From the NCBI RefSeq assembly GCF_004353825.1, contig NZ_SMNA01000002.1, positions 496,001 to 560,000 on the forward strand: DNA of 64,000 nucleotides. The letters are read 5' to 3'. The stretch comes from Occultella glacieicola (GTDB lineage: Bacteria; Actinomycetota; Actinomycetes; Actinomycetales; Beutenbergiaceae). The notes under the pieces are model-generated. The model was not told the DNA's origin, ran no database searches, and saw nothing but the letters and a program-made list of their open reading frames with translations. Positions 2,410 through 58,814 of the stretch are shown here, in pieces; the stretch's first letter is position 1, and each line of letters starts with the position of its first letter. Made by a program: the position numbers and the translations under genes.

Positions 2410-3990
<1,581 letters not shown>

Positions 3991-5260: not shown

Positions 5261-5785
5261 ATGAGCAATCCCTACGCCCCGCCGGACCCGTCGCGGCCCA
5301 AGCCGGACCCGGATCGGCACAACCTGCGCCGGCCCGACCGGCCGCCGGGTGGCCTGCTCCGGCCGGGCCGCCCGCCCGAGGAACCACGACCGGCACCGAG
5401 CCCGGAGCAACTCGTCGAGATCAGCCGGTCGGTCATGTTCTTCGGGCTGCTGCTGCTCGCCGCGGTGCTCACGTCCGGGCTGCCGATCCCCTGGCAGGTC
5501 GCGGCGCCGCTGTTCGCCGGCGGTGCCATCGTGATCGGCCTGCGCACCCTGGGCAAGATCCGCCGGTTCGGCGTTCGCGGCATGATCACGGTGTTCCTGA
5601 CCGGTGGGATGGTGCTGTCCGCGCTGCTGCTGTTCTCCTCGGTCACCCTGCTCTCGCTGTGGCCCGCGCAGGTCGAGCGCCAGCAGTGTCTCGACTCGGC
5701 CCTGACGATCGCCGCGCAGGACCGCTGCGAACAGCGGTTCAACGAGGCCGTGGCCGATCGGTACGGCACCAGTACCGGCGGCTGA
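5261..5785 (+). CDS. Uncharacterised membrane protein, proline-rich N-terminus
   Basis: A 174-residue protein of unknown function. Residues 1-50 are polar and rich in Pro, Arg and Asp (a cytoplasmic tail beginning MSNPYAPPDPSRPK). Three hydrophobic segments follow (about residues 58-76, 78-95 and 108-128), and the tail is short with two Cys (QQCLDS and DRCEQRF), possibly an extracellular disulphide. GGAGG just upstream supports ATG 5261; the open frame is longer but poor. It lies divergent from purN and convergent with the PerM-like gene. In M. tuberculosis a membrane gene (Rv0954) occupies a similar position near perM, but I cannot confirm homology. Confidence 0.75.
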   Translation: MSNPYAPPDPSRPKPDPDRHNLRRPDRPPGGLLRPGRPPEEPRPAPSPEQLVEISRSVMFFGLLLLAAVLTSGLPIPWQVAAPLFAGGAIVIGLRTLGKIRRFGVRGMITVFLTGGMVLSALLLFSSVTLLSLWPAQVERQQCLDSALTIAAQDRCEQRFNEAVADRYGTSTGG

Positions 5786-5832
5786 GCGGGGGCGCGAAGC
5801 CGGTCGTCAGGTCCGATGTTCAGGTCCGTGGA

Positions 5833-7104
5833 TCAGGGCCGCTCGTCCGGCCGGACCTCGCCCCACCAGGACCGCACCGTCGTGCGGATCCACCCGACGG
5901 CACGGGCCGTGGCCGGGTGGCTGAGGGTGACCACCGCACCCGCTCCGAGCAGCGTCTGCCAGCCGACGGCCACGGCGACCGGAAGCGCCTCGGCTCCGAC
6001 GACCGCCATCCGGCCGGGCCCGATCCCGCCCGACCCGGCCACGACCGCGGCCCCCACGACCGCTGCCGTGAGGGTCGCGGCGACCACGACGGCCGCCAGC
6101 GAACCGAGCAGGCCCGCGGTGGGTGCCGCGCGGTGCAGCCACCAGCCGGCGGCTGCACCGACGAGGACGCCGAGCACCACCACGATGCCGAGCTCCCCGA
6201 GGAGGCTGCCCGGCTCCGGGAGCGCGCCGAGCACCGGGACCACCGGGAGCGGGCCCGCGTCGATGCCGGAGGGCGTGAACGCCGTGCCCTCCCCCACCGC
6301 GAACCCGGGCCCGGCCAGATAGGCGAGCGCCCACATCATCAGGGTCGGCAGGAGCAGGAGCTGGGCGAACACAGCGACCACGGTGCTCACGCCGTCGGTG
6401 TGCAGCCCGGCGTGGAGCTCGAGGATCGCCTCGAACGAGATGACCACCGCAGCCACCACCGCGACCAGTGCCACCAGCACGAGTGCGACCAGGATCCGGA
6501 CCCCGGCGCGCAACCCGAGCACGAAGGCGTCGGGGATGTGGTCCAGCGCCCGGGCCGGGCCGGCCGGTAGCCGCGGGTATCGGCCGCGTTGGCCGAGCAG
6601 TGACCCGACCACCGCCACGGCGAGCGCGCCCCCGAGAGCCCGGGCTCCGCCGTCGACCCCCGCGAATGCGACCAGCAGACCGGTGCCGGCGACGTAGGTG
6701 CCGGCGGCAACCATCAGGGCGGTCCACCCGGTGAGCTGCGCCCGGCGGACGGCGGCGGACATCAGGAACACCGCCAGTGCGGTGACCCCGAGCGGAACGA
6801 GGCTGAGCTGGAATCCCGCGACCTGCACCAGCGCCCCGTGGCCGAGGAGCCAGGCCGCGGTGCCGATCCGGGCCGCCTCCAGCCAGCCGGCCTCCCCGAG
6901 CGCGGGCGACGCCGCGGTCGCCACATACGCGGCGACGGCGGGGATCACCAGCACCAACCACCCGAAACCGGCCGCCTCGGCCCCCGCGAGCAGCCCGCGC
7001 ACCGAATGCTCCGGCATCCGGAACGCCGGGCGGGACCGACCGCCGTACGCCTCGTGCTCGATGACGCGCGGTGGGATCGTCGGCGGGCGGGTGGTGGTAC
7101 TCAT
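5833..7104 (-). CDS. DUF6350 polytopic membrane protein (PerM-like)
   Basis: Integral membrane protein of 423 residues with about ten hydrophobic segments rich in Ala, Val, Gly and Leu. Segments include FGWLVLVIPAVAAYVATA near residue 48 and HIPDAFVLGLRAGVRILVAL near residue 187. The cytoplasmic N-terminus contains MPEHSVRGLLAGAEAAG, a recognisable start for the family. Position identifies it: it lies between sucCD and purN-purH, like Rv0955 (PerM), a mycobacterial protein linked to cell division and persistence. Function here is inferred from family and synteny only. The gene is read on the minus strand, convergent with the membrane gene to its left. Confidence 0.8.
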   Translation of the reverse strand: MSTTTRPPTIPPRVIEHEAYGGRSRPAFRMPEHSVRGLLAGAEAAGFGWLVLVIPAVAAYVATAASPALGEAGWLEAARIGTAAWLLGHGALVQVAGFQLSLVPLGVTALAVFLMSAAVRRAQLTGWTALMVAAGTYVAGTGLLVAFAGVDGGARALGGALAVAVVGSLLGQRGRYPRLPAGPARALDHIPDAFVLGLRAGVRILVALVLVALVAVVAAVVISFEAILELHAGLHTDGVSTVVAVFAQLLLLPTLMMWALAYLAGPGFAVGEGTAFTPSGIDAGPLPVVPVLGALPEPGSLLGELGIVVVLGVLVGAAAGWWLHRAAPTAGLLGSLAAVVVAATLTAAVVGAAVVAGSGGIGPGRMAVVGAEALPVAVAVGWQTLLGAGAVVTLSHPATARAVGWIRTTVRSWWGEVRPDERP

Positions 7105-10462: not shown

Positions 10463-11638
10463 TCAGCTGTTCGCCAGTTCGGCGGCCTTGTCGGCGGCGC
10501 CGTCCATGGTGTCCACGACGGTGACCAGCGGGTGGGCGGCCTCGGCGAGGATCGCTCGGCCCTCCTCGACCGCGTTGCCGTCGAGGCGGACCACGAGCGG
10601 CTTGTTCTCCTTGTCGCCGAGGATCTCCAGCGCCTGCACGATGCCCCGAGCGACCTCGTCACAGGCGGTGATGCCGCCGAAGACGTTCACGAACACGCTC
10701 TTGACCTGCGGGTCGTTCAGGATCACGTCGAGCCCGGCGGACATCACCGCCGCCGAGGCGCCGCCGCCGATGTCGAGGAAGTTGGCGGGCTTGACGCCAC
10801 CGTGCGCCTCGCCGGCGTAGGCGACCACGTCCAGGGTGCTCATCACCAGACCCGCACCGTTGCCGATGATGCCCACCTCGCCGTCGAGCTTGACGTAGTT
10901 GAGGCCCGCGGCCTTGGCCTTCGCCTCGAGCGGGTCCGCGGCGGCCTTGTCCTCGAGCTCGGCGTGGTCGGGGTGCCGGAAGTCGGCGTTCGCGTCCAGG
11001 GTGACCTTGCCGTCGAGGGCGACGACGTCGCCGGCGCCCGTCTTGACCAGCGGGTTCACCTCGACGAGCGTGGCGTCCTCCTCGCGGTAGACGGTCCAGA
11101 GCTTCTGGATGGCCGCGGCCACCTTCGGCGCGACGTCCGGTGCGAAGCCGGCGGCGGCGACGATCTCGTCGGCCTTGGCCTGGTCGATCCCGACCTGCGG
11201 GTCGACGGGCACCCGGGCCAGCGCCTCCGGACGCTCGACCGCGAGTTCCTCGATCTCCATGCCGCCCTCGACGCTGGCCATCGCCAGGTACCGGCGCTCG
11301 GAACGGTCCAGCAGCACGGAGAAGTAGTACTCCTCCGCGATGTCCGCGCCCGCGGCGATCATCACCCGGTGCACGGTGTGCCCCTTGATGTCCATCCCGA
11401 GGATCTCCGAGGCGCGGTCGGCCGCCTCCTGCGCGGACTTCGCCACCTTGACGCCGCCCGCCTTGCCGCGGCCGCCGATCTTCACCTGCGCCTTGACGAC
11501 CACGACGCCGCCGGAGTCGCCGAGCAACTGCTCCGCCGCGGCCCTGGCCTCCTCGGGGGTGGTGGCGACGATGCCGCCCAGCACGGGTACGCCGTGCTTC
11601 TCGAACAGATCTCGTGCCTGGTACTCGAACAGGTCCAC
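10463..11638 (-). CDS. sucC: Succinyl-CoA synthetase, beta subunit
   Basis: ATP-grasp subunit that binds nucleotide and succinate and pairs with SucD in the TCA cycle. The 391 residues begin [20 protein letters not shown]. They carry [17 protein letters not shown] (ATP-grasp), VEVNPLV (metal and nucleotide site), [12 protein letters not shown], and [17 protein letters not shown] near the C-terminus. AGGTGG precedes ATG 11638. A dyad, CTCGATGTCGAG, lies about 40-50 bases upstream in its leader, and a second copy sits at the methyltransferase gene near 32.1 kb. This makes a shared TCA-cycle regulator plausible. Confidence 0.98.
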
Positions 11639-11677
11639 CTGCGTTGCGCCCTTCTATTGCCCGCTGTGATCGGATGC

Positions 11678-11689
11678 CTCGACATCGAG
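11678..11689. promoter_or_regulatory. CTCGATGTCGAG dyad upstream of sucC
   Basis: On the minus strand GTCTCGATGTCGAGGC: arms CTCGA/TCGAG around TG, 39-50 bases before the sucC ATG. TACAGT about 15 bases further upstream could be a -10 element. The 13-base string TCTCGATGTCGAG recurs exactly at 32110-32122. Confidence 0.5.
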
Positions 11690-11754
11690 ACTTTTCCCTT
11701 GAACTGTACCGTGCACCGCGTCGGGCGCCCGACGTGGGGCGGTCCCGTGCGGGG

Positions 11755-13782
11755 TCAGTCCGTCAGGGTCGCGAGGGCGGCCCGGACCACGTCGGAGAAG
11801 AGGTACATGCCGTCCATGTTCGGGTGGATCAGGTCCGGCTGGAGCTGTTCGGGGTGGGCGGTGGCCGCGGCGTTCCAGTCCGCGACGGCGACGTTCGGGT
11901 ACTCGGCGGCGAGGTCGGCGAGGTTCTGGTTGGACTCCGGCACCCAGGTGCTGGACCCGTAGATGTTGACCAGCACGACGGACCGGTCGGGCCCGAGCAG
12001 GTCGAGGGCCTGGCGGACGAGGTCCGGGTCCCGCACGCCGGCGTTCGTGCCGGCGGCGATGACGACGTACTCGCGGACCGTGCCGGCCTCGACGGCGGCC
12101 TGGATCGCGGCGAGGACGTCCGGCCACTGCCGGTTGGACTTCGCGTCGATGCCGATGCCGGGCAGGTCGGCCGTCAGCCCGGGTGCGGCCACGTACAGCA
12201 TCGAGTCGCCGAACGCCGTGATCTGTTCCCCGGTCACCCCGGCGGGCTGGGTCGGGTCCTCGGTCGGTGCGGTCTCGGTCGGTGCGGACTCGGTCGGTGC
12301 GGTCTCGGTCGGTGCGCCGCCCGACGGCGCGGGCTCGTCGGCCGGTGCCTCGGCGCCCCCGGTGTCGGTGCCGTCCGCGGCCGACCCGCCGGCCGCCGTC
12401 GGCCCCGCGTCGGCGGCCGGATCCACGACCGCGCCGTCGTCTGCGGCACCGGCGTCCTCGACGACCGTGGCCGCGTCGGCCATGGCGATCTCCACCTGGG
12501 AGCGGTCCGGTGCGGTCGCGAGCGCCGCGGTGAACATCGAGACGCAGGCCAGGCTCGCGACCACGCCGACGCGCGGGAGGGTGAGCCGGCCCGGGGCCCC
12601 GATCGCGTCGAGAGCCCGGCGGGTGGCCTCGGCGAACCCCAGTTCGCGGATCGGGTTCTCGATCCACCGGTAGCAGGCGCCGGCGATCAGGAGGGTCACC
12701 AGCACGGCCAGTGCGCGCTGCACCCAGTGCCCGGCGGTGTCCACGCCGACCCGGGGCGTGATGGCGGCGATCAGCAGGATCACGGGCCAGTGCCACAGGT
12801 AGATGCCGTAGGAGCGTTCCCCGATCCAGGCGAGCGGACGCAGCGAGAACACCACGGTCAGGACGGTGCGGGGCCCGGGCAGCGCACCGACGATCGCGGC
12901 GGTCAGCAGGGCCGCCGCCACGATGCCGCCGCGGTAGGCGATCGGGTTGTCGGGGTCCAGCCAGAGCATCAGCGCGATCAGGCCGGCCAGCGCGGCCAGG
13001 GCGATGACCACCCGGCCCCGCCGCCAGAACCTGGTCGCGAGCAGGTTCGCCGACTCCCCGGCCGCGCTGACCGCGAGGGCGGCGCCGATCATCAGGCCGA
13101 ACGCGTGGGTGTCGGTGCCGTAGTACACGCGGGTAGCGTCCTGGCCCGGGGTGTACAGCACCGCCATCGCGACGGCGGAGGCGGTCGCGAGCGCGAGCAG
13201 GAGCCCCACGCGCTGGCGTCCGGTGCGGGTGATACCCATCATGACCAGGAACAGAAGCGGCCAGAACAGGTAGAACTGCTCCTCCACGGCCAGCGACCAG
13301 AAGTTCACGAACAACTGCGGTGCGGTGGCGTTGAAGTAACTGGAGCCGGCTCCGATCTCCAGCCAGTTGTTGGAGAACGTCAGGGCACCGAGCACCTGCC
13401 TGCCGATGTTGACGAGCAGGTCCTCGCCGGCGATCAGGGCCAGTGACACCGTGGCGAACACCACGACCACGAGGGCGGGTAGCAGCCGGCGCGCGCGCCG
13501 GGTCCAGAACCGCCGCAGGTCGACCCGCCGGTCGGCCCGCAGCTCCCGCACCAGCAGGGTGGTGATCAGGAATCCGGAGATCACGAAGAAGACGTCGACG
13601 CCGAGGTAGCCGCCGGGCAGGCTCAGCGGGCGCAGGTGGAAGATCAGGACGGCGATGATCGCCAGGGCCCGGACGCCGTCGAGGCCGTCGATCCGGCCGG
13701 TCCGCAGCGCCTGCGCGGGGTCGCCGGGGTCGGGCGAGTCGGCCTGTGCTCGGCCCTGCGCGCTGGGCGCGTCAACGCTCAC
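11755..13782 (-). CDS. Membrane acyltransferase (acyltransferase 3) with C-terminal SGNH domain
   Basis: OafA/YrhL-type protein expected to O-acylate a surface polysaccharide or other envelope glycan. Of 675 residues, about 35-410 form the multi-span acyltransferase-3 domain: GLDGVRALAIIAVLIFHL with the catalytic His, GVDVFFVISGFLIT, and FWSLAVEEQFYLFWPLL. A roughly 100-residue extracellular linker rich in Ala, Pro, Thr and Glu includes four 5-residue repeats. The rest is an SGNH hydrolase-like domain with AFGDSMLY, AAGTNAGV and DLIHPNMDG (Ser, Asn, Asp/His blocks). No polysaccharide genes adjoin it, so the acceptor is unknown. GTG-type upstream starts were not needed; MSVDAPSAQ at 13782 is used. 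Confidence 0.88.
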   Translation of the reverse strand: MSVDAPSAQGRAQADSPDPGDPAQALRTGRIDGLDGVRALAIIAVLIFHLRPLSLPGGYLGVDVFFVISGFLITTLLVRELRADRRVDLRRFWTRRARRLLPALVVVVFATVSLALIAGEDLLVNIGRQVLGALTFSNNWLEIGAGSSYFNATAPQLFVNFWSLAVEEQFYLFWPLLFLVMMGITRTGRQRVGLLLALATASAVAMAVLYTPGQDATRVYYGTDTHAFGLMIGAALAVSAAGESANLLATRFWRRGRVVIALAALAGLIALMLWLDPDNPIAYRGGIVAAALLTAAIVGALPGPRTVLTVVFSLRPLAWIGERSYGIYLWHWPVILLIAAITPRVGVDTAGHWVQRALAVLVTLLIAGACYRWIENPIRELGFAEATRRALDAIGAPGRLTLPRVGVVASLACVSMFTAALATAPDRSQVEIAMADAATVVEDAGAADDGAVVDPAADAGPTAAGGSAADGTDTGGAEAPADEPAPSGGAPTETAPTESAPTETAPTEDPTQPAGVTGEQITAFGDSMLYVAAPGLTADLPGIGIDAKSNRQWPDVLAAIQAAVEAGTVREYVVIAAGTNAGVRDPDLVRQALDLLGPDRSVVLVNIYGSSTWVPESNQNLADLAAEYPNVAVADWNAAATAHPEQLQPDLIHPNMDGMYLFSDVVRAALATLTD
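12261..12320. repeat. Four 15-bp tandem repeats in the acyltransferase linker
   Basis: Unit CGGTCGGTGCGGTCT, four near-identical copies (the last diverges after ten bases), encoding repeated Glu-Thr/Ser-Ala-Pro-Thr on the minus strand. The 15-base unit keeps frame, so copy-number change would only alter linker length between the membrane and SGNH domains. Confidence 0.8.
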
Positions 13783-52994: not shown

Positions 52995-53972
52995 CTACTT
53001 GATCCCGGATCCGACGAAGCCGTTCACGAACTGCTTCTGGAAGAAGAAGAACATGACGATCATCGGAACCGCGGCCATCGTGGTGCCGGCCATGAGCAGG
53101 TTGAACTCGGTGCCCGCCTCCTGCCGGAACACCGACAACCCGAGCTGGATCGTGCGCAGGTTCGTGCTGGAGGTCACCAGCAACGGCCACAGGAAGTTGT
53201 TCCATCCGGCCTCGAAGGCCAGCAGCGCGACCGTGAGCATCCCGGGCCGGATCAACGGAGCCATGATCTGCACGAACGTGCGTGCCTCGGACGCGCCGTC
53301 GATCCTCGCGGCCTCCATCAGTTCGGTCGGGGTCGAGATGAAGAACTGGCGGAACAGGAAGATGTTGAAGGGTGAGACGAGCGCCGGGATCAGCAGCGCC
53401 CACCAGGTGTCGTACCACCCCGTGCCGCCCTGCCCGAACAGATCGTTGCCGCCGGCGAACGGCACGAACCGGATCATCAGGAACTCGGGGATGACGATCG
53501 CGTAGAACGGGATCATCATCGAGGCCAGGATGAAGCCGAAAAGCACGCTCGCCCCCCGGAACCGAATCTTCGCGAGCGCGTAGCCGGCCATCGACCCGAG
53601 CACCAGGTTCGAGATCGTGTGCACGGCCGCGATGATGAAACTGTTCCGGGCGTAGATCCCGAAGGGTGCCCTCTCCAGGGCCACCGTGAAGTTCTCCCAG
53701 TGCCACTCCGTTGGCCACAACGGCATGTCCGCCGAGTAGATCTCCGGCGACGAGCGCACCGAGGTGAGGAACATCCAGACGAACGGCATCGCCATCACGA
53801 CCGAGACGACGATCAGGAAGATGGTCAGGGCGAACCGGGAGATCCGGCGCTGCTTGCTCGCCGAGGCCCGCTTGGCGCGCCGCTCCTGCCGTCGATCGGC
53901 CTTGAGCCTGGCTGACTCCTGCTCGGTGCCGACGGGCGCGTCGATGGTGCCGGGGAAGGCGGTGTCAGTCAT
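52995..53972 (-). CDS. Carbohydrate ABC transporter permease (MalG type)
   Basis: Second permease of a CUT1-type sugar importer, 325 residues from ATG 53972. A long polar, basic N-terminus precedes six helices starting FALTIFLIVVSVVMAMPFVWMFLTS. The EAA loop that docks the ATPase is LMEAARIDGASEARTFVQIMAPLIRPGM near residue 225. The C-terminus QKQFVNGFVGSGIK is typical. Its start overlaps the end of the first permease gene by 8 bases. No ATPase gene is present; such importers often share a common MsmX/MsiK-like ATPase encoded elsewhere. Confidence 0.93.
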   Translation of the reverse strand: MTDTAFPGTIDAPVGTEQESARLKADRRQERRAKRASASKQRRISRFALTIFLIVVSVVMAMPFVWMFLTSVRSSPEIYSADMPLWPTEWHWENFTVALERAPFGIYARNSFIIAAVHTISNLVLGSMAGYALAKIRFRGASVLFGFILASMMIPFYAIVIPEFLMIRFVPFAGGNDLFGQGGTGWYDTWWALLIPALVSPFNIFLFRQFFISTPTELMEAARIDGASEARTFVQIMAPLIRPGMLTVALLAFEAGWNNFLWPLLVTSSTNLRTIQLGLSVFRQEAGTEFNLLMAGTTMAAVPMIVMFFFFQKQFVNGFVGSGIK

Positions 53973-54897
53973 CCTTACCACCCGTGACCTTTCTCGAGAT
54001 GATGGTCAGGACGACCAGGACCACCAGAAGAACGACCGACTGCGCGGTGGCGAGCCCCATCCGGAACTGCTGGAAGGCCGTCTGGTAGATCTGATAGGTG
54101 ATGACGGTCGTGGAGTTCGCCGGACCACCATTGGTCAGGTTGTAGATCAGGTCGAACGTCTGGAAGTTCCCCACGATCGAGGTCACCAGGATGAAGAAGG
54201 TCACCGGCTTGAGCATCGGGATCGTGATCCGGAAGAACTTCTGCACGGCCGACGCGCCGTCGATGTCCGCGGCCTCGTACAACTGCTGGTCGATCCCCTG
54301 CAACGAGGCCAGGTAGATCATCATCTTCAGCCCGATGCCCTGCCAGATGGTCACCAGGATCACAGAGGGCAACGCCTGCGACGGACTCGCGAGGAACGCC
54401 TGGTTGGGTAGCCCGAAGAAGCCCAGCACGATGTTCAGCAGCCCGTTCCCGCCGGGCGAGTAGATCCACAGCCAGATCATCGCGATCGCCACGGTCGCGG
54501 TGACGTGCGGTAGGAACACCGCCGTCCGGAAGATCGAGTTGCCGCGCAGGCCCTGGTTCAGCATCACGGCCAACGCCAAGGAGATCAGCATCGAGATCGG
54601 GATGCCGACGACCGCCATGATGAAGTTGTTCCCCAGCGCCTTCCAGAACACCGGATCGTTCGCCAACGTCACATAGTTGTCGATCCCCGAGAACTCCGGC
54701 GGGTTCAACATGTCGTAGTTCGTGAAGCTCAGGATGATCGACACGACGACAGGCAGCCCGGTCCACAGAGCGATGTGGATCGTCGCCGGGGCAGCGAACA
54801 GCAACCCCCAACGCCCCTGCCGTTGTGTCAACGTGGCGCCCCGCCGACGCGCGGGCGGGGCGGACTGGGTCTGCCTGTCGACCGTGTTGGTACTCAT
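53965..54897 (-). CDS. Carbohydrate ABC transporter permease (MalF type)
   Basis: First permease of the sugar importer, 310 residues from ATG 54897 (MSTNTVDRQTQ) behind AGGAG. Six helices, beginning GLLFAAPATIHIALWTGLPVVVSIILSF. The EAA loop LYEAADIDGASAVQKFFRITIPMLKP lies near residue 210. It is 25 bases downstream of the binding-protein gene and overlaps the second permease gene, so the set is co-transcribed. The longer frame to 54966 lacks family character. Confidence 0.93.
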   Translation of the reverse strand: MSTNTVDRQTQSAPPARRRGATLTQRQGRWGLLFAAPATIHIALWTGLPVVVSIILSFTNYDMLNPPEFSGIDNYVTLANDPVFWKALGNNFIMAVVGIPISMLISLALAVMLNQGLRGNSIFRTAVFLPHVTATVAIAMIWLWIYSPGGNGLLNIVLGFFGLPNQAFLASPSQALPSVILVTIWQGIGLKMMIYLASLQGIDQQLYEAADIDGASAVQKFFRITIPMLKPVTFFILVTSIVGNFQTFDLIYNLTNGGPANSTTVITYQIYQTAFQQFRMGLATAQSVVLLVVLVVLTIISRKVTGGKDD

Positions 54898-54922
54898 CGG
54901 GTACTCCTGACGATCGTCCTGC

Positions 54923-56200
54923 TCAGACGCGCGAGAGCGCGTCCTGGGCGGCCGCGGTGAGCGCATCGATGGCCTGCTGCGCGGTCTTCTGTCCGGTCAC
55001 GGCGGCCTCGAGCTCGGGCGCGACCAGACCACGGATCTCCATCCAGGCAGGGCTGCCGCCCTCGAACGCGGTGGCGTAGCCGAAGTTGTCGATCGTGTAC
55101 TGCGCCATGAGGTTGTCAGTCACGACGGGGTCCTCGATGTCGGTCCGGGCCGGCACCTTCCCGCTCTCGGTGACCGCGGTGAGCAGCGGCTCGGCCTCGA
55201 GCATGTAGCTCAGCAGCTCCTGGACCTTGTCGGCGTGCTGGGTCCGGGACGACATCGTCAGCAGGGTGCCGCCGGTCCACATCACCGGGTCACCGCCCGC
55301 CTCGGCGGACGGAAGCAGGAACATGCCCATGGCGTCCTCGGTCACCAGTTCCGGGCTCTGCTCCGTGAACGACGGCCACAGGCTCGAGTTGAGCAGGTCG
55401 ACGGCTGCCTGTCCCTGCTGCCAGGGTCGGGGCTGGCCCTCGGCACCCTTGACGTCGAAGTTCGCGGTGCCGTCGGCGACGAGATCGAGCATGTACTGCA
55501 GCGCGGCCAGGCCGGAGCCGTCGTCGAAGGCCACCGCCGTGCCGTCGTCATTGAACAGACGTCCGCCGTAGCACCCGAGGAGGTGGCTCCAGGTCTGGCG
55601 GATGTTCGAGGAGAACAGGTCGATGCCCACGCCACCGTCCGGCGTGACCTCCTTGAGCGCCTCGCGCAGGTCGTCCAGGTTGGTGGGAACTTCGGCGATG
55701 CCTGCCGCGTCGAACAGCGCCCTGTTGTAGATGCAGATGCGACCGTCGACGAAGTACGGCAGTGCGTGCAGTTTGCCCTCGTAGCGGCACTGGGCGAGCA
55801 GGTTCTCGTTGACAGGGAGCCCGTCCAGCAGTGATTCCGGCAGCTCGGTCAGGACGCCCTTGTGAGCGAACGGCTCCACCCAGCCCGCGCCCGGCATGAT
55901 CACATCGGCGACCAGGCCACCGGCCACCGAGGTCGACAGCTTCTCGTTCAGCTTCGTCCAGTCGGTGTAGTCGACCTTGTAGGAGTAGTCGGTTCCCTCG
56001 AAGAAGCCGTCGAGGATGCCGGTCTCGAGGGCGGCCTTCCCGGTGGTGCCCGCGAACTCAGGCGTCAGGAGTGAGATCTCGCCCCCGCCACCACCGTTTC
56101 CGCCACCACCGCCGCTGCCGCTGCCGGAGCAGGCGGCGAGGGCGAGCGCGGAGAGGGAGACCCCGGATGCGGCCAGGAAGTCTCGTCTGCGAAGCGTCAT
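54923..56200 (-). CDS. Sugar-binding lipoprotein (extracellular solute-binding protein family 1)
   Basis: Substrate-binding protein of the importer, 425 residues from ATG 56200 with AAAGGAC upstream. The signal is twin-arginine-like and lipid-modified: TLRRRDFLAASGVSLSALAL then lipobox ALAAC with Cys24, followed by a Gly/Ser-rich spacer. The mature part is an SBP_bac_1 fold (SYKVDYTDWTKLNEKLSTSV, GKLHALPYFVDGRICIYNRALFDAAGI, MGMFLLPSAEAGGDPVMWTGGTLLTMSSRT). Export through Tat would mean the protein folds before crossing the membrane. The sugar is unknown; plant-type oligosaccharides are a guess from the DUF624 neighbour. Confidence 0.92.
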   Translation of the reverse strand: MTLRRRDFLAASGVSLSALALAACSGSGSGGGGGNGGGGGEISLLTPEFAGTTGKAALETGILDGFFEGTDYSYKVDYTDWTKLNEKLSTSVAGGLVADVIMPGAGWVEPFAHKGVLTELPESLLDGLPVNENLLAQCRYEGKLHALPYFVDGRICIYNRALFDAAGIAEVPTNLDDLREALKEVTPDGGVGIDLFSSNIRQTWSHLLGCYGGRLFNDDGTAVAFDDGSGLAALQYMLDLVADGTANFDVKGAEGQPRPWQQGQAAVDLLNSSLWPSFTEQSPELVTEDAMGMFLLPSAEAGGDPVMWTGGTLLTMSSRTQHADKVQELLSYMLEAEPLLTAVTESGKVPARTDIEDPVVTDNLMAQYTIDNFGYATAFEGGSPAWMEIRGLVAPELEAAVTGQKTAQQAIDALTAAAQDALSRV

Positions 56201-56406
56201 TGCTTGTCCTTTCAGATCTGGGAGGGTGCTCTGACCCAACCCTTAGGAGGGTGAACCGTCGGCGCGTTCGTGCCGATGTGCTGCCGGAGGACCTGCGGGT
56301 TCCAGGTCGTGCTGAGGTCTGTACTTGTCGGGGGTCCGAGTCCGACGATGGACGCGGGGCGGGCTTCAACTGTGACGCTAACCACGCCATGCGCGGGATC
56401 CGGCCT

Positions 56407-56476
56407 TGTTGCCGTTTGTTGCCTCAGCCTGCTCGCTGTTGAGCATCTCTGCTCACGGGTGTTCAGTGGTGAGCAG
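56407..56476. promoter_or_regulatory. Seven-step 10-bp phased repeat array upstream of the sugar importer
   Basis: TG occurs at exactly 10-base intervals at 56410, 56420, 56430, 56440, 56450, 56460 and 56470, each starting a related hexamer: TGCCGT, TGCCTC, TGCTCG, TGAGCA, TGCTCA, TGTTCA, TGAGCA. The last four form two inverted pairs, TGAGCA-TCTC-TGCTCA and TGTTCA-GTGG-TGAGCA. TTGTTGCC is a direct repeat at 56406 and 56416. The array sits in the 333-base gap (56201-56533) between the binding-protein gene and the regulator gene; I see no coding in that gap. Likely operator for the DeoR/LacI-hybrid regulator. Confidence 0.6.
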
Positions 56477-56533: not shown

Positions 56534-57640
56534 TCACACCCAGGCCGTCGAGGCACGCTCGATGAGCGCCGGAGTCAGGATGACTCGCCGGACCGGCAGG
56601 TGGGATCCGCCGGGCGCGAGCCTGGAGAGCAGGAGCTCGACGGCGTAGTGGCCGATCATCGCCTTGGGTGGGCTCATGGCGGTGATCGCGGGCGAGGCCA
56701 GGTTCGCCACCTCATCGTTGTAGCTGATCACCGAGAGGTCCTCGGGCACGCGGACACCCAGTTCGGCGCAGCGGCCGACGAGCTCGAGGGCGTCGTCGTC
56801 CGGATGCACCAGGACCGCGGTGGTCGCGCTGGCTCGCATCCGCTCGATGAAGTCGTCCAGGGCCGACCGCCAGCCGGGCTCGGAGTAGACCCTGACGGTG
56901 GCGTCCGGCGTCCCCTCGACCGGCAGTCCGAGGTCCTCACACGCCGCGCCCCAACCCCGCCGCAGCTGGCCGGCGGTGACCGAGTCGGAGACCATCAGCC
57001 CGATCCTCCGGTGTCCACGGGCCTGCAGCTGGCGCACCGCCAGCGCGGCACCGAGTTCGTGGTCCGTCGACACCGCCTCGATCGGCTGGCCATACGTCCC
57101 GACCTCGAACTGTCGCTCCGCCAACACCACCGGCACCCCGAGAGAGGCGAGCCACTCGCCCAGGTCCGGCTCGGCCACCCGCGGGTCCGGAGCCAGGATC
57201 AGCCCGTCCACCTTCGTGGTCACCAGCAGGCCCCCGACATCCCGGCGGTACTCGGCCGGATCGTAGGTCGACCCCCGCAGCGCGATGGTCGCACCGCGCT
57301 CGTCGGCCGCCAACGTCGCGCCCCTGGCGATCTCCGGCCAGTAGTTGTGACGCAGGGTCGGCACCACCATGCCGAGGACGAGGCCCCGACCGTTCGGCTG
57401 GGCCGGCCGCTGGAGCGCTTCCTCCGCGACCCGGACCTGGCGCACTCCGCCGCGGACCCGGTGCGCGTGACCCTCGCGCTCCAGCAGCCCCACGTCCCGA
57501 CGCACCGTCACGGCCGTCACCCCGAGCCTCGCGGCGAGCGCGTCGATGCGGTGCGTGGCGCCGTCCTGGAGCACCCCGAGGAGTCGCTCCCGTCGCTCGT
57601 CGGGAAGGAGGGCGCGGGTGCCACCCGAAGACTCATCCAT
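56534..57640 (-). CDS. Transcriptional regulator: DeoR-type HTH fused to LacI-type sugar-binding domain
   Basis: Regulator of 368 residues from ATG 57640. The N-terminal winged HTH is of DeoR type (LPDERRERLLGVLQDGATHRIDALAARLGVTAVTVRRDVGLLEREG). The rest is a periplasmic-binding-like effector domain as in LacI/GalR proteins (LGMVVPTLRHNYWPEIARGATLAADERG, DGLILAPDP, GVPVVLAERQ, RQLQARGHRRIGLMV, LVHPDDDALELVGRCAELGVRVPEDLSVISYNDEV). It presumably binds the imported sugar. It lies directly upstream of the importer operon on the same strand and divergent from the dehydrogenase/isomerase pair, so it may control both. Confidence 0.88.
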   Translation of the reverse strand: MDESSGGTRALLPDERRERLLGVLQDGATHRIDALAARLGVTAVTVRRDVGLLEREGHAHRVRGGVRQVRVAEEALQRPAQPNGRGLVLGMVVPTLRHNYWPEIARGATLAADERGATIALRGSTYDPAEYRRDVGGLLVTTKVDGLILAPDPRVAEPDLGEWLASLGVPVVLAERQFEVGTYGQPIEAVSTDHELGAALAVRQLQARGHRRIGLMVSDSVTAGQLRRGWGAACEDLGLPVEGTPDATVRVYSEPGWRSALDDFIERMRASATTAVLVHPDDDALELVGRCAELGVRVPEDLSVISYNDEVANLASPAITAMSPPKAMIGHYAVELLLSRLAPGGSHLPVRRVILTPALIERASTAWV

Positions 57641-57724
57641 GGCTGCTCCAGTCTGCGGTCCGCGGACCCCACCGTGACCACCACGCATGATCAGTCCGCT
57701 ACTGTACGGTTCGTTAAGTGTCGT

Positions 57725-57736
57725 TCATGATCATGA
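57725..57736. promoter_or_regulatory. TCATGATCATGA palindrome in the divergent promoter region
   Basis: Perfect 12-bp palindrome in the 154-base gap between the regulator and the dehydrogenase gene; further GATC-containing half-sites lie at 57684-57692 and 57734-57742. Candidate operator. The half-site TCATGATC also makes up the 25-bp palindrome at 459-483. Confidence 0.4.
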
Positions 57737-57794
57737 TTGATCCAATTCGACACGCACGATGTGGCACTCACCCGATGATGGGACGCGAGGAATC

Positions 57795-58814
57795 ATGGCA
57801 TCAACCCGACCGCGAGCACTGCTGGTCATGAGGGACTGGGCCTACCAGACCCAGTTCGGCCCGGACGAGCTGGAGCGACTGCGCGCGCTCGCCGATCTCG
57901 GCCCCGACGAGACTCCGCTCTCCGAGCTCGACTCCCCCGCCGCCCGTGCCCGCCTGGCCGACGCCGAGGTCCTGGTCACCTCCTGGGGCTGCCCCCGACT
58001 GGACGAGGACCGGCTCGCCGCCGCCCCGAACTTGCGCGCGGTGTTCCACAGCGCCGGGACCGTGCGGTCGCTGGTCTCCGACGAGCTCTGGGCACGCGGG
58101 ATCCGCGTCACGACGGCAGCCGAGGAGAACGCCGAGCCGGTCGCCCAGTTCACGTTCGCCGCCATCGTGTTCGCCGGGAAGAAGGCTCCGTTCCTCGCGC
58201 AACGGGCCCGGACCGATCGCGCGGACTGGTCCTACAAGTTCCGACACACTGACGAGCTCGGCAACCTCGGCCGAACGGTCGGCCTGATCGGCTTCTCCCG
58301 GATCGGCGCGCGCGTGGCGCAGCGGCTGCTCAGCCTCCCGGTCCGGACGCTCGTGTACGACCCGTTCGTGGACGACGCCCGGATCGAGGCGGCCGGGGGC
58401 CGACGGGTCGAACTGGACGAGTTGCTCACCTCCTCCGACATCGTGAGCGTCCACGCCCCGCAGCTGCCGAGCACGCACCACATGCTCGGCGCGGACCAGC
58501 TCGCCCTCATGCGCGACCGCGCCACGCTGATCAACACCTCGCGGGGCTCGCTGATCGACACCGAGGCGCTGACGGCCGAGTGCGCCAGCGGCCGGCTCGA
58601 CGCCATCCTCGATGTCACCGACCCGGAGCCGCTACCGCCCGACTCGGTCCTCTACGATCTCCCGAACGTGATGATCACCCCGCACATCGCCGGATCCCTG
58701 GGACTGGAGACCCGCCTCATGAGCCAGCGCGCGCTCACCGAACTTGCCCGGTACATCGACGGCCTGCCCGCGGAGGAAGAGGTCACGGCCGAGGCGATGG
58801 GAGTCATGGCGTGA
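57795..58814 (+). CDS. D-2-hydroxyacid dehydrogenase family protein
   Basis: NAD-dependent 2-hydroxyacid dehydrogenase fold, 339 residues. The catalytic Arg is in INTSRGSLIDTEAL, Glu in DVTDPEPLPPDS, and His in MITPHIAGSLGLE. The cofactor loop is GRTVGLIGFSRIGARVAQ: Ser replaces the usual middle Gly of GxGxxG, an uncommon change that may affect cofactor use. ATG 57795 is preceded by GAGGAA. It overlaps the following isomerase gene by GTGA, and the pair is divergent from the sugar regulator. It may oxidise a sugar-derived acid, but no substrate can be assigned. Confidence 0.87.
   Translation: MASTRPRALLVMRDWAYQTQFGPDELERLRALADLGPDETPLSELDSPAARARLADAEVLVTSWGCPRLDEDRLAAAPNLRAVFHSAGTVRSLVSDELWARGIRVTTAAEENAEPVAQFTFAAIVFAGKKAPFLAQRARTDRADWSYKFRHTDELGNLGRTVGLIGFSRIGARVAQRLLSLPVRTLVYDPFVDDARIEAAGGRRVELDELLTSSDIVSVHAPQLPSTHHMLGADQLALMRDRATLINTSRGSLIDTEALTAECASGRLDAILDVTDPEPLPPDSVLYDLPNVMITPHIAGSLGLETRLMSQRALTELARYIDGLPAEEEVTAEAMGVMA

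Follow-up and report, generated by a model that had tools for sequence, protein, structure and literature searches.

A conserved 10-bp comb of TGARCA words beside a DeoR-LacI hybrid regulator in Occultella, a probable compound operator of a sugar importer operon

The phased row in front of the importer genes

In the window (the whole stretch of DNA that was analysed, 64,000 nucleotides of an Occultella glacieicola contig), a row of strictly phased TG dinucleotides lies between a regulator gene and the genes of a sugar importer, which raises the question of what reads this row and in which arrangement. The original prediction saw there seven hexamers one helical turn apart, more extended than the usual DeoR or LacI operators, along which the adjacent regulator would bind in a filament-like manner. 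The TGs begin at 56410, 56420, 56430, 56440, 56450, 56460 and 56470, the exact 10-bp period and the very positions that had been predicted, and on the plus strand they form the only TG run of six or more at any period from 5 to 21 in the whole window; over the same periods CA, representing the other strand, gives a single run of six, at period 9. Runs of CC, CG and TC reach seven or eight at periods 6, 7, 9, 12 or 15, so TG is not alone among dinucleotides in reaching seven. Chance would give approximately 4e-5 run starts for TG at period 10, and 300 simulations with a first-order Markov model produced no run longer than five. A run of four TGNNCA words at 10 bp, absent from all of 300 Markov simulations, is present a single time in the window; at 11 bp the window does not hold even a run of two.

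The words at the seven TGs read, in order, TGCCGT, TGCCTC, TGCTCG, TGAGCA, TGCTCA, TGTTCA and TGAGCA. All seven TGs are thus in phase as claimed, but only five of the words (56430-56475) fit TGARCA/TGYTCA with 4-bp gaps, TGCTCG with one mismatch. TGCCGT (56410) and TGCCTC (56420) fall outside this consensus, and the two TGs that begin them are part of a separate 10-bp direct repeat of TTGTTGCC that shares the TG phase. The five words can be read as a single half-site and two proposed dimer sites, O1 and O2, with a centre-to-centre distance of 30 bp, or about three turns (Table 1).

Table 1. Features of the regulator-importer locus (window coordinates)
Feature	Position	Strand	Basis or remark
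ABC permease 2	52995..53981	-	BPD_transp_1
ABC permease 1	53965..54966	-	BPD_transp_1
Sugar-type solute-binding protein of the importer	54923..56200	-	SBP_bac_1
Conserved CGTGGTTAGCGTCACA with TAGCGT	56371..56386	-	Candidate -10 and/or Crp-like site
25-base block CTGAGGCAACAAACGGCAACAAGGC	56403..56427	-	Invariant in four genomes, spacer included (alignment)
Core comb TGCTCG-TGAGCA-TGCTCA-TGTTCA-TGAGCA, 4-bp gaps, 10-bp period	56430..56475		Sequence and conservation
Proposed dimer site O1, TGCTCG-N4-TGAGCA, inverted half-sites	56430..56445		Orientation kept in 4/4 genomes; pairing putative
Single in-phase half-site TGCTCA	56450..56455		TGYTCA in 4/4 genomes
Proposed dimer site O2, TGTTCA-N4-TGAGCA, inverted half-sites	56460..56475		First half in 4/4, second in 3/4 genomes; pairing putative
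DeoR-head/LacI-sensor regulator, 384 aa	56534..57688	-	HTH_DeoR residues 32-83, Peripla_BP_3 residues 218-381
Weaker 10-bp comb TGATCA, GCTACT, GGTTCG, GTGTCG, TGATCA, TGATCC	57688..57743		Regulator/dehydrogenase intergenic
D-2-hydroxyacid dehydrogenase-like gene, divergent from regulator	57759..58814	+	2-Hacid_dh_C; conserved neighbour

The genes that adjoin the row are of the ABC sugar type, in agreement with the original prediction, and the regulator indeed combines a DeoR head with a LacI-type sensor: its N-terminus matches HTH_DeoR (PF08220) at 33.5 bits against a cut-off of 21, and its C-terminus matches Peripla_BP_3 at 115.1 bits against a cut-off of 26.5. An AlphaFold2 model built on a 21-sequence alignment (mean pLDDT 81.7, pTM 0.70) predicts a winged helix-turn-helix at about residues 29-84 and a LacI-type core at about 103-382, with low confidence at residues 1-24 and in the linker (86-99). 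Among the best-ranked solved structures for this model were CcpA, RbsR, an ancestral LacI and the AraR sensor; a comparison of the DeoR head with solved structures by sequence gave two matches, the best at E 0.16.

Conservation was followed in 24 genomes of the family, the window's own included, with a match threshold of E 0.1 or better. The DNA of the array is present in four of the 24, the four Occultella genomes (the window's and G001-G003), so that its carriers all belong to one genus, and in all four the comb region can be aligned without insertions or deletions. The length of the comb is constant in the aligned leaders and its spacers drift; the TG/CA frame and the orientation of the hexamers stay. 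By position, the hexamers of the four genomes are TGCTCR, TGARCA, TGYTCA, TGTTCA and TGAGCA, with a conserved orientation pattern Y-R-Y-Y-R. All five teeth match in G001 and G002 and four of five in G003, whose last tooth, TGCGCG, is with the window's first word, TGCTCG, the departure from the conserved words; more than five matching teeth were found in none of the four. The original prediction had made its case depend on a 10-bp periodicity in orthologous intergenic regions, and the comb is indeed kept in all three other Occultella genomes. The regulator, the binding protein, the two permeases, the dehydrogenase and a TIM-barrel gene stay together in all four; the binding protein orthologues in G001-G003 are 91-92% identical, and the Occultella aeris regulator is 83% identical to that of the window, whose genome comprises 5.34 Mb in 23 contigs.

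A profile of three hexamers (three teeth) built from the array and run on the family genomes ranked the array locus top in each of the four Occultella genomes (E 0.04-0.06), and its best match in the other 20 had E 1.03 within the first-look filter. Each of the four genomes yields the array a single time at a usable profile score, beside the regulator in every case, a uniqueness subject to that filter (in G000, the window's genome, 150 of 1695 first-look candidates were scored). These matches to the array alone suggest, at the level of sequence, a local regulator. Two weak matches in G000 (E 1.8 and 3.0), considered as further arrays, were treated as chance. Another locus of the window's genome, L072, contains at about 1501-1530 three 10-bp units, TGACCAGCGC, TGACCAGTGC and TGATCAGTGC, that match the profile weakly.

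Between the comb and the binding protein gene, the 25-base block on the minus strand is better conserved than the comb. The direct repeat of TTGTTGCC, at 56406 and 56416, is perfectly conserved and reads GGCAACAA-AC-GGCAACAA inside the block on the importer strand; among 96 loci compared, a repeat of GGCAACAA at 10 bp is confined to this one. Further along the minus strand (56371-56386), a conserved CGTGG(T/C)TAGCGTCAC(A/G) resembles both a -10 element (TAGCGT) and a Crp-type site. TAGCGT (56375-56380) is the sole TANNNT common to all four leaders; a sigma-70 promoter scan found no promoter. Should TAGCGT be the -10, the comb would be located at about -62 to -107, as for an activator, a position upstream of the promoter that is unusual for a DeoR or LacI repressor. 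The same stretch contains GTG-N6-GNCAC, which we take to be the Streptomyces Crp motif (a literature search on it as a Crp motif returned no paper), and because TAGCGT falls inside this Crp-like motif, the promoter may lie elsewhere.

The regulator's own promoter region carries a second, weaker 10-bp comb. Its words are TGATCA-like, not TGARCA, and only three or four of its six teeth are good. With the importer array masked, the TGARCA score at period 10 reaches this height at five of 63,785 places, the second comb included, and the best scores of the same region at periods 9, 11 and 12 are equalled at 3103, 249 and 1740 places, respectively. In G001-G003 the second comb is equalled at 7-8 of 10,776-11,786 places of shorter loci, themselves included; as orthologues, these three count as one observation. 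By a looser TGANCA score, and with the importer array set aside, it leads the 64-kb window for six and for seven teeth, ties with 54102 for four and comes after 54092 for five. Words like TCCCATCATCGGG occur once at 57640-57830 in the window and twice, about 25 bases apart and near the dehydrogenase start, in the corresponding region of the three other Occultella genomes (L037-L039).

Spacing of repeats upstream of DeoR-LacI hybrids

Relatives of the regulator at E 1e-40 or better are encoded in 29 of 149 genomes of the order, and the genome of the window has at least seven further DeoR-LacI hybrids besides the neighbour of the array. Of 52 proteins scanned, that of the window included, all carry Peripla_BP_3 and 51 carry HTH_DeoR at E 0.001 or better. 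One protein collected among the hybrids (L052, about 5494-6585, minus strand) combines a LacI-type sensor with a head that reads as GntR-type, an AraR-like hybrid.

For each regulator, the 250 nt upstream were compared after grouping into sequence clusters. A 4-/5-mer autocorrelation tried at first was confounded by codon periodicity and was replaced by counts of hexamer near-repeats. In the first set, 17 of 31 hybrid clusters (the window's own region included) have near-repeats whose distance is exactly 10 bp, and the corresponding share is 2.7% among 1215 other windows and 5.6% among 142 windows matched for AT content; after correction and without the window's region the count is 16 of 29. 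In a second, later-fetched set, 10 bp is the commonest distance (8/18 clusters), followed by 21 bp (7/18). This set is only partly independent, as five of its clusters merge with first-set clusters; the 13 unrelated to the first set give 6/13 at 10 bp and 5/13 at 21 bp. Canonical LacI regulators have near-repeats at 10 bp in two of 13 clusters. Other distances also exceed the controls in the first set (17 bp, 8/31; 20 bp, 9/31), partly because one matching member counts for its whole cluster. In the second set and in the canonical LacI control (20 heads each), the type of head was assigned by inspection rather than by Pfam, and one control region, L098, is probably partly within its own gene.

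A more specific word, YRANCA, was defined after both data sets had been seen, and its counts, made without the window's region, are post hoc. Pairs of YRANCA in either orientation at 10 bp are found in 13 of 42 hybrid clusters, in none of the 13 canonical LacI clusters and in 2.1% of the 1215 other windows; at 9 bp and at 11 bp, the hybrids have two of 42 each. The count of 13 is the same when one region per cluster is taken and was not altered by the correction of the cluster set, and 29 of the 42 clusters lack such a pair in the 250 nt examined. In the corrected YRANCA and near-repeat counts, L087 was re-sited (its locus ends at a contig end) and L052 dropped. L090 and L095 entered only the earliest near-repeat count and are excluded from the 31-, 18- and 42-cluster counts, G001's own region likewise appears only in the earliest near-repeat count, and L027-L031 are in no count.

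Some combs mix the two kinds of word: CGATCA-N4-CGATCA-N4-TGTTCA in L084, TGTTCA-N4-CGATCA in L092 and TGAACA-N4-CGAACA in L118. Given these mixed combs, a single protein could credibly recognise TGATCA-like words at its own promoter as well as TGARCA at the importer. An attempt to predict the word from the recognition helix failed: the helix TAVTVRRD is identical in the window's regulator and in the hybrid of L021, whose repeats are TGATCG. By the counts given above, putative half-sites at exactly 10 bp are favoured in the DeoR-LacI hybrid family. TGATCG/GATCGA repeats at 11 bp stand upstream of the hybrid in L013, L016, L017, L040 and L047-L049; 10 bp is therefore not universal among hybrids, and the family may have two spacing classes.

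The divergent pairing of the regulator with a D-2-hydroxyacid dehydrogenase-like gene recurs at 12 of 38 other loci (L009, L013, L014, L016-L018, L021, L023, L040 and L047-L049; the 38, L006-L026 and L040-L056, apparently include one without a DeoR hybrid), which suggests a shared sugar-acid theme.

A proposed compound operator and the competing readings

We consider it probable that the stretch 56430-56475 is a compound operator of the adjacent DeoR-LacI hybrid, occupied by side-by-side dimers. Each winged-helix DeoR-type head would recognise one YRANCA half-site, here TGARCA. A LacI-type core normally dimerises and thus offers two heads per dimer, and by pairing two subunits it would allow one dimer to take two half-sites 10 bp apart. 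O1 and O2 would then accommodate two dimers next to each other on one face of the DNA, with the half-site at 56450-56455 as a spare, in-phase one between them; the pattern Y-R-Y-Y-R would be better matched by a pair of inverted-repeat sites, one per dimer, and a lone half-site than by a uniform track. By binding to the LacI-type domain, a sugar or a derivative of one would alter the occupancy of the comb and thereby regulate the importer operon, and the same hybrid would act on its own gene and on the divergent dehydrogenase gene through the weaker comb (57688-57743). The binding of the hybrid at the comb, the register of its dimers, their cooperativity and the effector are inferred from sequence, and the effect could be either repression or activation.

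A different protein could be the reader: the comb might be the site of a regulator encoded elsewhere, with the hybrid confined to its own and the dehydrogenase promoter through GATC-type sites. This is rather unlikely in our estimation. The TGATCA-like words at the hybrid's own promoter and a recognition helix identical to that of a GATC-type hybrid speak for it, and the invariant GGCAACAA block suggests an additional contact by an extra factor or by RNA polymerase. Against it weigh the single array per genome at usable score within the first-look filter, next to the hybrid in every one of the four, and the presence of TGTTCA/TGAACA and CGATCA/CGAACA words in common combs upstream of other hybrids. 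The filament-like cooperative spreading over seven sites that was originally put forward keeps the reader and changes the arrangement. That five to seven teeth are spaced by exactly one turn speaks for such spreading, but matching words number only five of the seven and at most five in any of the four genomes, the conserved orientation is not uniform, and the predicted protein ends with its LacI-type core, the model containing neither a helix nor an added oligomerisation domain beyond it. The analysis produced no evidence of filaments, and we regard their formation as quite improbable.

Still less probable is a function at the RNA level, in which the repeats would serve as a terminator or attenuator in the interval from the regulator gene to the importer genes. 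TGAGCA and TGCTCA are able to pair, much the same nested hairpin is predicted for G001 and G002 (z -2.97 in G002, with none of 200 shuffles as stable), the z-scores of all four leaders range from -1.1 to -3.0, and the window has an 8-bp stem. The folds of the window and G003, however, differ from that hairpin and from each other, and their hexamer at the position of 56440 differs from that of G001 and G002 with no compensating change in its partner. A structured RNA element was judged unlikely, as the predicted fold is common to no more than two of the four orthologues and neither an Rfam family nor a terminator-like site was found. That the row arises from chance or base composition is scarcely credible: the comparable runs of other dinucleotides at other periods give this idea some footing, but the simulations never reproduced the row and it is conserved in four genomes. 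The compound operator of the hybrid stays the reading that we prefer.

Relation to known operators and meaning for the hybrid family

The Escherichia coli GlpR operator has inverted half-sites resembling TGTTCG-N4-CGAACA, the same geometry as O2; GlpR has a DeoR-type sensor, whereas that of the Occultella regulator is LacI-type. IolR of Bacillus subtilis, a DeoR-family protein, recognises tandem 11-mers near one helix turn (a literature search for these found no paper), and differs from the Occultella comb in its 11-bp spacing, its word and its sensor. AraR of B. subtilis has a LacI-type sensor, the structure of which (3tb6) was matched by the regulator in the structure comparison; in it, too, a LacI/GalR-type sugar sensor carries a head from another family, but that head is GntR, not DeoR. 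The GntR membership of AraR (PMC4218819) and a tetrameric E. coli GlpR (PMC4659176) are both on record. B. subtilis DeoR and CggR are assigned to the SorC family despite the name of the former; DeoR has TTGAACA words, and the operators of both, described as several half-sites bound by tetramers, differ from the 10-bp comb of Occultella (PMC11229326).

The nearest precedents are phased operators of DeoR-family regulators, half-sites of which, as in Occultella, recur at 10-11 bp near the regulated gene. For RhaR, PMC3870299 describes four groups of motifs as imperfect direct repeats with a 10-11 bp periodicity, an electrophoretic mobility shift assay (EMSA) of the Chloroflexus aurantiacus protein on a 38-bp fragment with four TCGAAA sites, and the loss of that binding with L-rhamnulose. 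The likeness to the array is in the period and the number of sites; the differences are that the passages on RhaR present it as a DeoR-family protein rather than a DeoR-LacI hybrid and give TCGAAA as its word, against five half-sites of mixed orientation, a TGARCA word and a LacI-type sensor in Occultella. LacI-family rhamnose regulators have a single palindrome of about 20 bp as operator (PMC3870299), a form that the comb, with half-sites 4 bp apart and repeated five times, does not take. A tandem-repeat site is reported for a DeoR-family regulator of Caldicellulosiruptor, where repression by LacI and DeoR regulators is deduced from site position (PMC8579813). Given the RhaR and Caldicellulosiruptor precedents, the phased operator is of a known kind, and the claim that the row is more extended than usual applies to its five half-sites but not to its principle, a RhaR fragment with four sites having been published. 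Most likely, judging from sequence, the Occultella row is a real, conserved and functional-looking operator, a known kind in an extended form. Our search by title and abstract start, with most subscription-journal papers outside it, found no description of the operator of a DeoR-LacI hybrid.

A bolder proposal, which we put forward as doubtful, is that DeoR-LacI hybrids are a class with a grammar of their own (YRANCA words, an exact 10-bp comb, two to five half-sites), in which the Occultella array would be a multi-dimer platform with cooperative side-by-side loading, a steep response to sugar and possibly activation from upstream. With its five teeth, the array would lend itself well to studying DNA recognition by a LacI-type dimer that carries foreign heads. 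The combination of DeoR head and LacI sensor is widespread in this bacterial order, and a family-wide spacing rule would be of greater value than the single Occultella site: if true, the half-site rule of YRANCA words in a 10-bp comb would permit regulon prediction for many actinobacterial sugar systems.
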